Of a stretch of 64,000 nt of DNA, positions 40,941-45,321 are shown piece after piece (the first letter of the stretch is position 1; the number at the start of each line of letters is the position of its first letter). The position numbers and the translations under genes are program-made. Where the stretch lies: assembly GCA_021821045.1 (NCBI GenBank), contig JAKACW010000012.1, positions 1 to 64,000 on the forward strand, in the 5' to 3' direction. Source of the stretch: Pseudomonadota bacterium. Its GTDB lineage: Bacteria; Pseudomonadota; Gammaproteobacteria; JAADHS01. The notes below the pieces were generated by a model. That model ran no database searches, had not been told where the DNA came from, and saw only the letters and a list, made by a program, of their open reading frames with translations.

Positions 40941-41027
40941 TCCCGTGGGAGCGGTTTCCTACCGCGATTCTTCGTCTAAATGATCGTTACAGACAATTCT
41001 TCGCGGTAGGAAACCGCTCCTACGGGA
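40941..41027. repeat. Long inverted repeat of two A2 arms overlapping the sulfotransferase stop
   Basis: Forward arm 40941-40967 and inverted arm 41001-41027: 27 bp each with one mismatch (G versus A in the GTGGGAG head). It fills the gap between the convergent gatB and sulfotransferase genes and the inverted arm runs 8 bp into the latter. It probably serves as a transcription stop for both. Confidence 0.88.
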
Positions 41028-41907
41028 CCAAACCCAAAAACACCAAACACTCCGGTTCCAGCATCTCCCGTGCCTGGTCGAGTATGCGCTGCTCCTGCTG
41101 CTTGCTAAGCAAGGTCTTGTAATCCCCCACCTTGCCTTTGCGAATGAGCCCGCCTTTCTCGAAGTGTTCGGAGATCGTATAACCCGGCACGGCGGAGAAC
41201 TTGGCGTTGTGGCGCTTCATCCACTCGAATGAGCAGTGTTCCAGTACCCGCGCTTTTTGGTCCGGTTCAAGCGTCCAGCCAAGAAACCCAACAATCGAAT
41301 CGACAGCCTGTTCCAGATCACGCTTCATGTCCTCATAGCGCAGCCACAGCACATTGGCATCCGTGCGATGGGGCCACCAGCTCTGAATGTTGCGAAACCA
41401 GGCGCCGCCCGCCAGCCAGCGCTCGAACAAATCGTCGAACGTCGCGTTCTCGTCGACGCCAAGACGGTCGCGAATCGGATCGGCCAAGTTGATCATGTGG
41501 TGGTAATAACTCACGCAGCAGTCGCGAGGATCGCGCGAGGTCATCACGATGCGCACGGTGTCCGTTCCGGGTGTCTGTTCGTAGGTGCAGTGCGTCTTGA
41601 AAATGCGCGGGTTGGACATTGCTTCGTAGTCGCGCAGCATCGTGGCCACGTCCACGCCCGGTCGGCGATATTCCAGCCATGGCACCACATCGAAGATGTT
41701 GTCGAACGACTCGTCGCCGCCGCTGCGCAATTGATACAGAATCTGCTGCATCCAGGTCGTACCCGCCTTGGGCGCGGTGGTGATCAGCACATCCGTGGCG
41801 CGCGGCCTGAATCCCGCCAGCAGCGCCGGCTCGTGAAAGAGCGACGCGGCGCCCCATTTCGGATCTAAATTACCCGCAGGTTGCGCCGCTGTTTTGGTGT
41901 TCGTCAC
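41020..41907 (-). CDS. Sulfotransferase family protein
   Basis: 295 residues, cytosolic PAPS-dependent sulfotransferase fold. 5'-phosphosulfate loop VLITTAPKAGTTWMQQIL (residues about 40-57) and the 3'-phosphate motif VRIVMTSRDPRDCCVSYYHH (about 117-136); late motif HFEKGGLIRKGKVGDYK matches the conserved RKGxxGDWK box. It would transfer sulfate to a hydroxyl or amine of an unknown acceptor. Last gene of the leftward cytochrome c-GST-sulfotransferase group; 13 bp after GST. Its TAG stop is built from a repeat arm (see findings), so its natural C-terminus may have been changed. Confidence 0.88.
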   Translation of the reverse strand: MTNTKTAAQPAGNLDPKWGAASLFHEPALLAGFRPRATDVLITTAPKAGTTWMQQILYQLRSGGDESFDNIFDVVPWLEYRRPGVDVATMLRDYEAMSNPRIFKTHCTYEQTPGTDTVRIVMTSRDPRDCCVSYYHHMINLADPIRDRLGVDENATFDDLFERWLAGGAWFRNIQSWWPHRTDANVLWLRYEDMKRDLEQAVDSIVGFLGWTLEPDQKARVLEHCSFEWMKRHNAKFSAVPGYTISEHFEKGGLIRKGKVGDYKTLLSKQQEQRILDQAREMLEPECLVFLGLVP

Positions 41908-41920
41908 CGCGCCCCCGAAG

Positions 41921-42604
41921 TTAGTTGATCGACACGAAGGTCGGCACTTTTTCCTTCATCGCCGCGACGAAGCCGTGGTGCGCTTCGTTTACTGCGTTCC
42001 ACGACGGCCGGCCCTTCATGCGGTCGAGCCAACGATTGACGTTGGGAAAACGCGCGAACTTTACGCCGATGACTTCGCCGAGAGTCAACAGCGCCGCACC
42101 AAAGTAATCCGCGATGGTGATGTCATCGCCGCACAGATAGTGCTTTTGCGGTCCCAAGATGTTTTGGTCCAGTAGGGTCAAGCAGGCGAGCGCTTTCTCC
42201 CGGCCCCAGTCCACCGTGATCTTGTTGGCGTCGGCGGGCTTGCGCGCGTGGTGAGGGAAGATCTGCGGATACACCATGTTGTAGCCGAACTCGCGATAAA
42301 GATTCGTGTTGAACCAGTCCATGATTTCGTTGACGCGGGCGCGTTGACGCAAGTCTTTCGGATAGGCGGGTGAGTCGAATTTCTCGGCCAGATACTTCAA
42401 AATCGCCGAGCTTTCCGTGAGGATGAAGCCGTCATCATCGAGCACGGGCACCATGCGATTGGGATTGATGGAGATAAACGGCTCCCGGTGGTGGGCGCCG
42501 GTCAACAAGTCCACCACTTCCGTTTCGATGGGAATATCATTGTCGGCGCAGAATTGCATGATCGGCCGCGACGTGGTCGATATGGGATGGTAATAGAGCT
42601 TCAT
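41921..42604 (-). CDS. Glutathione S-transferase family protein
   Basis: 227 residues. Thioredoxin-like N-domain (MKLYYHPISTTSRPIMQFCA, NRMVPVLDDDGFILTESSAI with the cis-Pro and glutathione-binding Glu-Ser) and an all-helical C-domain (YLCGDDITIADYFGAALLTL is the conserved N-capping box). Resembles bacterial theta-like GSTs; conjugation or isomerase activity and substrate are unknown. Start ATG 42604 has GGAAAG upstream; the frame is open further upstream through the cytochrome c gene but without meaning. Between cytochrome c (37 bp) and sulfotransferase (13 bp), so likely one operon. Confidence 0.9.
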   Translation of the reverse strand: MKLYYHPISTTSRPIMQFCADNDIPIETEVVDLLTGAHHREPFISINPNRMVPVLDDDGFILTESSAILKYLAEKFDSPAYPKDLRQRARVNEIMDWFNTNLYREFGYNMVYPQIFPHHARKPADANKITVDWGREKALACLTLLDQNILGPQKHYLCGDDITIADYFGAALLTLGEVIGVKFARFPNVNRWLDRMKGRPSWNAVNEAHHGFVAAMKEKVPTFVSIN

Positions 42605-42641: not shown

Positions 42642-43139
42642 CTACTGGGTTTTGACTTGTTCCGGAACAAAGTTGATATAGGCGTATTGCGCGACTTTTT
42701 CCGGCGGCACATAAGCCGGTGCTGGTACGCCTTTCGGTCCCAGCGAGCGAATGAACTGATACACCGCACGCAGATCCGTTTCGCCCATGTCGCGCAGATT
42801 GAACCAGGGCATCGGCGGGCGGGCTTCGAAGCTGTGGGCGAACTTGACCCACTCCTGCTCGGTCATTCCCGCCAATTTCAGCCGCAGATTCACCGGATAT
42901 GTTACGCCCCACGGTCCCTTGAAGCCTACCGGATTGCCGGTCAGCCATTGGTCTTCGGGCAGCGCGCCGGCGGTTTCTACGTAGCCCGGCGTGTGACAAT
43001 CATTACAGCCGGTGATTTTAACCACGTAGCGGCCGTGATCGATCATCTCCTCTTTGAGTCCCTTGGCGTCATCCGCAAACACCGAGTTGGAAAGCAGGCT
43101 AACGCCCATGGTCAGTACTGCAGCAAGTTTGGTTTTCAT
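42642..43139 (-). CDS. Periplasmic cytochrome c-type protein
   Basis: 165 residues with a signal peptide (MKTKLAAVLTMGVSLLSNSV, cleavage about after Ala22) and one haem-binding CXXCH site, Cys45-Asn-Asp-Cys48-His49. Met110 in RPPMPWFNL is a likely sixth ligand. Resembles the c-type monohaem domain found in small electron-transfer proteins and alcohol/aldehyde dehydrogenase subunits; partner enzyme not present. RBS AAGGGGG lies just upstream. First gene of the leftward trio; the divergent region contains a perfect CRP-type palindrome 89 bp upstream of the start. Confidence 0.9.
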   Translation of the reverse strand: MKTKLAAVLTMGVSLLSNSVFADDAKGLKEEMIDHGRYVVKITGCNDCHTPGYVETAGALPEDQWLTGNPVGFKGPWGVTYPVNLRLKLAGMTEQEWVKFAHSFEARPPMPWFNLRDMGETDLRAVYQFIRSLGPKGVPAPAYVPPEKVAQYAYINFVPEQVKTQ

Positions 43140-43227
43140 ATAACCCCCTTCAATGTGTGGTCAGTGATTGAGTGATCTCGATAACACTCGAGATGGGCAC
43201 AGGCTACGTCGGAGGCGGACGTTGCGC

Positions 43228-43243
43228 TGTGATGTATCTCACA
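43228..43243. promoter_or_regulatory. Perfect CRP-type palindrome
   Basis: TGTGA-TGTATC-TCACA: both half-sites match the CRP consensus exactly with the canonical 6-bp spacer. It lies between cytochrome c (start 43139, leftward) and the CRP-like regulator (start 43326, rightward), centred about 41 bp upstream of a TATAAT box at 43277. The neighbouring regulator has the recognition-helix residues that read this half-site. Confidence 0.8.
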
Positions 43244-43254
43244 GGGGGTTCGAT

Positions 43255-43282
43255 TTTCAATTCACTGCCTCAGCGCTATAAT
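43255..43282 (+). promoter_or_regulatory. Candidate sigma-70 promoter for the CRP-like gene
   Basis: TATAAT at 43277-43282, with TTTCAA at 43255-43260 as a poor -35 (spacing 16). A weak -35 next to an activator site is the pattern of a CRP-dependent or autoregulated promoter. The start point would be near 43289, putting the palindrome centre at about -53. Confidence 0.5.
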
Positions 43283-43325
43283 CCCCGCTCTTGTTCTGCG
43301 AAAAATTTGCGCTCGGTGTCGCGGT

Positions 43326-44024
43326 ATGCACAATGTCGAACAACAGCACATCATGTTGGCGCTGCGGGAGAATCGCTTGTTCCGCCTCATCGCGCCGACA
43401 CATCATGGCGCGCTGGCGAACGTGGCGCAGCGGCGCGTCATTCCGGACAAAACGACGATCGTGCGCAAAGGCGAAACGGGCGACGAGATGTTCGCTCTGG
43501 TGCGTGGCCGCGTGGTGATGACGTCGTTATCGCCTGAAGGAAAGGAGCTGACCCTCGGCTATCTTGGCGCCGGCGATATTTTCGGCGAGATCGCCATGCT
43601 CGACGGCGGCCCGCGGACCGCGAACGTCACCGCCATCGAACCCTGCGAGGTCCTGGCGTTTCGTCGCAATGCTTTTTTGCAGTTTCTGCGCGAGTGTCCC
43701 GATGTGGCGATCAATTTCCTGACGCTGCTTGCGTCTCGATTGCGCAATACCGACCAAACACTGGAAGACACCTCGCTGCGCCAATTGCCATGCCGTCTTG
43801 CTCGGCGCTTGATCAATCTGGCATCCGATTTCGGCCACGCCACCATGGGCGGCGTGAAGATTCCGATACGGCTTTCCCAGCAAGACATCGGCAGCATGAC
43901 CGGCGCAACCCGCGAGTCCGTCAATCGCCAGTTACGCGAATGGGAAGGTCGCGGCGTGATCGCGTTGGAGCAGGGCTACATCACGATCGTCGATCACGCC
44001 CGCTTGTCGTCGCTCGCCGAGTAG
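43326..44024 (+). CDS. Crp/Fnr-family transcription regulator, cAMP-binding type
   Basis: 232 residues. N-terminal cyclic-nucleotide domain with phosphate-binding cassette FGEIAMLDGGPRTANVTA: Gly87, Glu88, Arg97, Thr98 and Ala99 agree with cAMP-binding consensus. C-terminal winged helix with recognition helix TGATRESVNRQLREW; Arg196, Glu197 and Arg201 occupy the positions CRP uses to read TGTGA. No Fnr-type cysteine cluster at the N-terminus. Start may be ATG 43326 or 43353; neither has a strong RBS. A class III cyclase follows 10 bp downstream and a perfect CRP site lies upstream, so it likely binds cAMP made by its neighbour. It is more like alphaproteobacterial Crp relatives than enteric CRP. 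Confidence 0.9.
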   Translation: MHNVEQQHIMLALRENRLFRLIAPTHHGALANVAQRRVIPDKTTIVRKGETGDEMFALVRGRVVMTSLSPEGKELTLGYLGAGDIFGEIAMLDGGPRTANVTAIEPCEVLAFRRNAFLQFLRECPDVAINFLTLLASRLRNTDQTLEDTSLRQLPCRLARRLINLASDFGHATMGGVKIPIRLSQQDIGSMTGATRESVNRQLREWEGRGVIALEQGYITIVDHARLSSLAE

Positions 44025-44034
44025 GGCCGTCTCA

Positions 44035-45321
44035 ATGTTCAGTCCCGAGTCCGGTCAGTCCGCTCTTTCCCGCTCCACCGGATTGACGGACAGCATCGCG
44101 GCGTGGCTGCTGACCGCGTCGGTGCGCGACGCCGACTACGGCACGCTCGTCGAGGGTTTGGGGCGGCGTCTTTTGAGCGGCGGCATTGCGGTGCATCGGG
44201 TCAATATCGGCGGTGTAATCGTCCATCCCGTCATGGGTGCGCGCGACGCCGTGTGGGAAGCGGATTCTCAATCGGTGCGCCACGACCGCATAACCCGCAA
44301 CGAACTCCTGACGCCCGCGATGCAGAACTCGCCGTTCTTCTCCATGGCGTATGAGCAGCAACAGTTCTATCGCTTACGGTTGGATGGACAGGATGCCTCC
44401 ATGCCCTTTCCCATCTTGGGTCGTTTGCGCGACCAGGGCTACACGGACTATTTTGCGTCCTTCATGTCGTACGGCCGCAGCTACTCCACCTTCGGCAATC
44501 TTCCGGCGAGCATCGAAGGCGCGCTGGCTTCCTTCACGACGCGCCGCCTCGGCGGCTTCACCGATGAGGAAATCGACGACTTGAAGCGCCTCCATCTGCC
44601 GTTGTCGGCGGCGATCAAGTCATCGATGACCAACGATTTCGCGCTGACGCTCATGCACACCTATGTCGGAACGTATTCCGCCGAGCAAGTGGCGAAAGGG
44701 CGCATTTCCCGCGGCGATGCGCAAACCACACGCTGCGTGATCTGGTACAGCGATTTGCGCGATTGCTCCGGCCTGGCTGCATCGTTGCCTGGCGAGCAGT
44801 ATCTGGCGCTGCTCAACCAATACTTCGATTGCACCGCCGGCGCCATCATCGATCACGGCGGCGAAGTGCTGAAGTTCATCGGCGACGCGGTGCTGGCGAT
44901 CTTTCCGATCATCGAGCCGGACCGGCCCGCGGCGGATATGTGTCGCGCCGCGGTCATGGCGACCCGTGAAGCCCTCCAGCGCGCCCGCGCCGTCAATGAT
45001 AGGCGGGCCCGAGACGGCGTGCCGACGATCAACTTCGGCGCGGCGTTGCACCTTGGCGATGTGATGTATGGCAACGTGGGTACCGCGCGGCGCCTCGACT
45101 TCACCGTCATCGGCCGAGCGGTCAACGAAGTGGCTCGCTTGGAAAAGTGCTGCAAGACACTACGCAAGCGGGTCGTCGCGTCGGAGGAGTTTTGCCGGGC
45201 CGCGCCGCAGACCTCCCGCGCGACGCCATTCGATCTCGATCCAGCCCTGGGGGTAAGCGCAAAACAAGCCTATGTTCTCGATGATTGCTTCGATCGGGGC
45301 ATTATTGCTTGGCGGGAGTAG
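44035..45321 (+). CDS. Class III adenylate cyclase
   Basis: 428 residues, no membrane segment. N-terminal domain of about 225 residues of the kind seen in rhizobial-type cyclases (GIAVHRVNIGGVIVHPVMGA), then a class III catalytic domain. Metal-binding Asp240 (IWYSDLRDCSGL) and Asp284 (LKFIGDAVLAIFP); adenine-selecting Lys280 and Asp355 (RRLDFTVIGRAVNE), transition-state Asn364 and Arg368. All are present, so ATP to cAMP is predicted. It begins 10 bp after the CRP-like gene, with AGTAGGG at the end of that gene as a possible RBS. Together they form an operon encoding signal synthesis and receptor. What the N-terminal domain senses is unknown. Confidence 0.9.
   Translation: MFSPESGQSALSRSTGLTDSIAAWLLTASVRDADYGTLVEGLGRRLLSGGIAVHRVNIGGVIVHPVMGARDAVWEADSQSVRHDRITRNELLTPAMQNSPFFSMAYEQQQFYRLRLDGQDASMPFPILGRLRDQGYTDYFASFMSYGRSYSTFGNLPASIEGALASFTTRRLGGFTDEEIDDLKRLHLPLSAAIKSSMTNDFALTLMHTYVGTYSAEQVAKGRISRGDAQTTRCVIWYSDLRDCSGLAASLPGEQYLALLNQYFDCTAGAIIDHGGEVLKFIGDAVLAIFPIIEPDRPAADMCRAAVMATREALQRARAVNDRRARDGVPTINFGAALHLGDVMYGNVGTARRLDFTVIGRAVNEVARLEKCCKTLRKRVVASEEFCRAAPQTSRATPFDLDPALGVSAKQAYVLDDCFDRGIIAWRE

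Follow-up and report, generated by a model that had tools for sequence, protein, structure and literature searches.

A CRP-type regulator, an adenylate-type cyclase and a TGTGA-N6-TCACA palindrome at one gammaproteobacterial locus: a candidate local cAMP switch

Organization of the locus

The window analyzed here is a 64-kb stretch of DNA in which a gene for a CRP-type transcription factor (43326-44024, + strand, 232 aa) is followed on the same strand, 10 bp past its stop codon, by a gene for a class III nucleotidyl cyclase (44035-45321, 428 aa, Pfam Guanylate_cyc). The two genes are probably co-transcribed as one operon. The CRP-type protein has a cNMP-binding domain and an HTH_Crp_2 domain, and its recognition helix reads GATRESVNRQLREW. 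Across a divergent gap of 186 bp (43140-43325) lies a mono-heme cytochrome c gene (42642-43139, - strand), which is a possible target. Its product carries a signal peptide and a single heme site, CNDCH, and a Pfam search with it returned no match. The cytochrome c gene is followed after 55 bp by a glutathione S-transferase-like gene (41921-42586, - strand), and this one after 13 bp by a sulfotransferase gene (41020-41907, - strand). The three genes likely constitute one operon.

Inside the divergent gap we found an exact CRP-type palindrome, TGTGA-N6-TCACA (TGTGATGTATCTCACA, 43228-43243, no strand assigned). The original prediction had located this perfect site between the leftward cytochrome c gene and the rightward CRP-type gene, and its coordinates for the palindrome, both of these genes and the cyclase gene all proved correct. 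The site is the sole exact match in the window, where dinucleotide shuffles of the whole sequence give 0.04, and the 186-bp gap, modelled as a first-order Markov sequence, would contain an exact match with a probability of about 2e-4. A site with one mismatch at 42992-43007 was rejected as an operator: it lies within the cytochrome gene, where its letters simply encode the CNDCH motif. Heme motifs are able to mimic CRP sites in scans, as this example illustrates.

Upstream of the CRP-type gene, the + strand carries a sigma70-like promoter, TTTTCA-N17-TATAAT (43254-43282), recognized by consensus match only, at 10 of the 12 positions. Transcription starting from it near 43289 would place the centre of the palindrome near -53.5, which is not a textbook position for CRP. 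On the opposite (-) strand of the gap, a start from the weak -10-like element TGTTAT at 43186-43181 would place the centre near -61.5, a textbook position.

Sequence features of the CRP-type protein and the cyclase

The CRP-type protein matches PF00027 and PF13545 above their cut-offs, which places it in the CRP/FNR superfamily. It is 31% identical to E. coli CRP, and against the global CRP equivalog NF008732 it scores 99.6 bits, below the curated cut-off of 266. When aligned to E. coli CRP, it retains the phosphate cassette (G87, E88, R97 and T98), and its R196, E197 and R201 correspond to the recognition triad R180-E181-R185. The protein carries the residues of TGTGA-reading CRP proteins, and is a predicted reader of such sites. 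The cassette (GE...RTA) and the Arg196-Glu197-Arg201 triad are thus present, as originally predicted; what that prediction had not mentioned is a change in the adenine contacts. The first of these (E. coli T127) is retained as T142, and the second (S128) is changed to D143. The position of E. coli S83 is occupied by Thr98. Among solved structures, the best sequence matches include the mycobacterial and E. coli CRP, both of which are cAMP receptors.

The cyclase scores 25.1 bits with PF00211, against a cut-off of 21.9, and has the residues of a class III adenylate cyclase: the metal-binding Asp pair (D240 and D284), the adenine-type Lys/Thr pair (K280 and T357) and the transition-state Asn/Arg (N364 and R368) are all intact. 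Its position, the PF00211 match and these residues bear out the claim that a complete class III adenylate cyclase begins 10 bp downstream of the regulator gene. The enzyme is predicted to be catalytically intact and of the adenylate type. Its first approximately 220 residues matched no Pfam family. This N-terminal domain has counterparts in alphaproteobacterial plasmid cyclases, at about 34% identity, and in a few members of the class. A contig scan of genomes with the cyclase as query found no relatives. In three plasmid neighbourhoods (L058-L060), no separate CRP/FNR regulator gene adjoins the cyclase, which gives no indication that the pairing is ancestral in this family of cyclases. An AlphaFold model of the cyclase alone was uninformative (pLDDT 38).

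Cyclase genes and palindromes beside related CRP genes

For comparison we used 80 loci that encode related CRP proteins. Among the gammaproteobacterial ones, the three nearest to the local CRP (L139, L140 and L150; 44-45% identity) form one clade with the window protein (support 88/97), and in all three a class III cyclase is encoded immediately upstream of the CRP gene. These cyclases are FHA-fused, a different type from the window's, and lie upstream, whereas the window's lies downstream. In the cyclase-FHA proteins, Asn (NTIGDE) takes the place of the usual purine-selecting Lys ahead of the second metal Asp, which makes their product uncertain. Exact palindromes occur in the divergent gap before the cyclase-CRP unit in L140 and L150; the L140 site, TGTGAGATATATCACA, and the window site read on its reverse strand, TGTGAGATACATCACA, differ by a single base out of 16. 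Loci with an adjacent cyclase cluster on the CRP tree, where only one in 500 label shuffles was as low. Judged from sequence, the comparison with relatives supports a functional link of the cyclase, the CRP-type protein and the site.

The comparison alone does not single out the reader of the site: the genomes of L139, L140 and L150 also carry a canonical CRP, for which their palindromes might be operators. In these genomes (G369, G370 and G053, respectively), the canonical CRP shares 62-65% identity with that of E. coli, and each also encodes a further CRP-like protein for which the value is 50-51%. Most other relatives of the local CRP have neither an adjacent cyclase nor an upstream palindrome. 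One genome (G373) combines a 43% relative, L141, with the lack of a canonical CRP; it contains no exact palindromes, and the region upstream of the L141 gene has no near site either. The absence of an exact palindrome from that genome counts mildly against a local reader. A conserved autoregulatory palindrome directly upstream of the gene showed a slight excess across the CRP family, and nothing more.

The L140 locus has a further feature. Next to its cyclase-FHA and CRP-type genes are two hcp-like genes (type VI secretion; L140:3306-4869) that are almost identical and were named by inspection of their translations; each has an exact TGTGA-N6-TCACA site upstream, at 87 and 95 bp. Possibly, this is a cyclic-nucleotide-controlled secretion locus.

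A global CRP system in the same genome

The genome to which the window belongs encodes a canonical CRP (C53:35677-36285), which is 61% identical to E. coli CRP and has the same recognition triad. It also encodes a class I CyaA (C53:68033) and five class III cyclases, the window's included. Given the canonical CRP, CyaA and the four further class III cyclases, the local CRP-type protein is not the sole candidate reader of the palindrome; likewise, with CyaA and those four enzymes present, the local cyclase is not the sole candidate source of cAMP. The original prediction described signal maker, receptor and target as adjacent parts of a local cAMP signalling module. The three are indeed intact neighbours, with support from relatives, but the pairing of local reader with local source had been made without the rest of the genome.

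A genome scan for the palindrome, proposed at the time as a check, returned 17 exact sites, against one for a reversed-pattern control. With few exceptions they are intergenic or lie within gene starts that have probably been extended too far. A similar enrichment was seen in several related genomes without a close relative of the local CRP. Most likely, the genome runs an ordinary global CRP regulon. The scan does not identify the neighbouring protein as the reader, since the canonical CRP is present, and for that reason the enrichment was rejected as proof of a regulon of the local protein.

What distinguishes the window site from the rest is its sequence context. The 16 other exact sites have A/T-rich flanks and a preference for C/T and then G in the spacer. 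In leave-one-out scoring, with these 16 sites as the basis of the contrast, the window site scored -12.7 for its flanks, where all others scored at least -3.3, and -4.4 for its spacer, where all others scored at least -0.1. Compared to random positions, its flanks rank at the 0.5 percentile, and in its spacer it resembles random DNA. The outlying flanks and spacer point away from the global CRP as the reader. Three readings of the window site follow: some factor besides the global CRP binds it, it is a global site of atypical sequence, or it matches by chance, which its position makes unlikely. No further near-copies of it (0-1 mismatch) were found in the genome.

Known and recurrent cyclase-CRP systems

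The closest known system is the cgrA module of Rhodospirillum centenum, arranged in the order RC1_3784, TGTGAAGCAGTTCACA, RC1_3785-gcyB-gcyC-cgrA (PMC4681086). CgrA is a CRP homologue that uses cGMP. It binds TGTGAAGCAGTTCACA between the divergent RC1_3784 and RC1_3785, as established by footprinting, and activates the cyclase genes, its own gene and the divergent gene; the two divergent genes, like the cyclase subunits, are CgrA-dependent, by 60- to 80-fold and with RNA-seq evidence (PMC4681086). As in the window, the CRP homologue is encoded with cyclase genes, and a TGTGA-N6-TCACA site lies in the divergent gap. The R. centenum module differs from the window in its use of cGMP, in belonging to an alphaproteobacterium, and in that the cyclase subunits precede the CRP gene, gcyB and gcyC being described as non-catalytic. 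In the window, by contrast, the CRP gene precedes a single adenylate-type cyclase gene, and the genome has a global cAMP-CRP system besides. Two hallmarks of a CgrA-kind module are found at the window locus: a crp-type and a cyclase gene in one presumed operon, and a site in the divergent gap. The Rhodospirillales relatives in our set (L142, L143, L155 and L156) are about 40% identical to the local CRP.

Other systems share part of the design. Sinorhizobium meliloti Clr recognizes GTNNCNNNNGNNAC and responds to cAMP and cGMP; it is, as the window protein may be, a CRP-type receptor served by non-CyaA adenylate cyclases, and its genome, too, has many cyclases (PMC10127613, PMC10463352). In Xanthomonas campestris, a cGMP-making class III nucleotidyl cyclase is encoded in linkage with a partner that acts in its pathway (XC_0250 / XC_0249); it shares the cyclase-partner linkage with the window and differs in making cGMP (PMC3770947). 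The E. coli or gammaproteobacterial CRP with class I CyaA has the same target core and recognition triad as the window. It differs in its low identity to the local CRP (31%) and in that crp and cya are not adjacent, and its true counterpart in this genome is the protein at C53.

Pairs of CRP and cyclase genes also occur elsewhere in the class. In L146 (Methylococcaceae), a CRP-type gene is followed after a 13-bp gap by a CHASE2 cyclase. A genome of the window's own family (L253) has another pair, as do three more from the class (L254, where the genes are divergent, L255 and L256). Their CRPs are 31-35% identical to the window's, no exact palindrome lies nearby, and the CHASE2 type was confirmed for L256. 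The CRP-CHASE2-cyclase operons (L146 and L130/L256) resemble the window in having a CRP-type gene and then a class III cyclase within a few bases, and differ from it in their CHASE2 sensor, in belonging to other CRP branches and in having no exact upstream palindrome. Since separate pairs occur in several genomes of the class, the pairing is a recurrent design. The novelty that the original prediction had implied, from enteric cya and crp being usually unlinked, was therefore overstated: the linked design is already known, and at the R. centenum locus it has been shown experimentally to work (PMC4681086).

A candidate feed-forward switch and its alternatives

Directly established are the gene order, the intact motifs, a palindrome beyond chance expectation and the recurrence in relatives. 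From these we infer, with moderate confidence, that the locus forms a feed-forward switch like that of CgrA, self-contained and driven by a cyclic nucleotide, most likely cAMP. The cyclase (44035-45321) would make cAMP when its N-terminal domain senses a signal. The CRP-type protein, encoded on the same presumed transcript (43326-44024), would bind cAMP and then the palindrome at 43228-43243, and so control its own crp-cyclase operon; the divergent cytochrome c-GST-sulfotransferase operon would probably also be under its control. In this proposal the identity of the ligand, DNA binding by the local protein rather than the global CRP, and the direction of regulation are all presumptive, and the outputs (its own operon and the cytochrome c-GST-sulfotransferase genes) are suggested by position.

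The palindrome could instead be an operator of the global cAMP-CRP at C53, in which case the crp-type/cyclase and cytochrome c operons would be ordinary regulon members and the local protein would act elsewhere. Much of the genomic context is compatible with this: a canonical CRP with the same triad and a class I CyaA are at hand, the 17 exact palindromes against one in the control are nearly all intergenic, relatives without a close local CRP show a similar enrichment, and the genomes with comparable loci (L139, L140 and L150) carry a canonical CRP as well. We nevertheless consider this rather unlikely, for the other 16 sites have A/T-rich flanks and a C/T-then-G spacer preference that the window site lacks, and on both counts it stands clearly apart from them. 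The surroundings of the site, which look random or worse, would also suit a functionless chance match beside crp-type and cyclase genes that are merely operon neighbours, and about one to three exact matches are expected per genome (one in the reversed control; 0.04 per 64 kb in shuffles). Such a coincidence is improbable given the value of about 2e-4 for this 186-bp gap and the comparable sites that L140 and L150 have in their equivalent gaps.

A different question concerns the ligand: does the local receptor answer cGMP or another cyclic nucleotide, as CgrA does, or both cAMP and cGMP, as Clr does (PMC4681086, PMC10127613)? The substitutions S128 to Asp143 and S83 to Thr98 would be consistent with a ligand other than cAMP. 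The linked cyclase, however, has the adenylate-type Lys280/Thr357 pair, and the best matches among solved structures include the mycobacterial and E. coli CRP. We regard a response to another ligand, in place of cAMP or along with it, as very improbable.

Beyond the proposed feed-forward switch itself, it is tempting to speculate that the locus is a private cAMP circuit operating beside the global CyaA-CRP system, in which the G/C-rich flanks and the spacer insulate the local site from the global receptor. We put this forward tentatively, as a possibility that is doubtful at present. For specialists, the main interest lies in the question of how one cell would keep a local receptor distinct from its global CRP. 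If the local protein is indeed the reader, the locus would be a compact natural case of two cAMP receptors kept apart although both read TGTGA...TCACA, with the flanks and the spacer of the site as the discriminating code. It would also extend the feed-forward design of the cGMP-dependent CgrA to a cAMP version in the Gammaproteobacteria.
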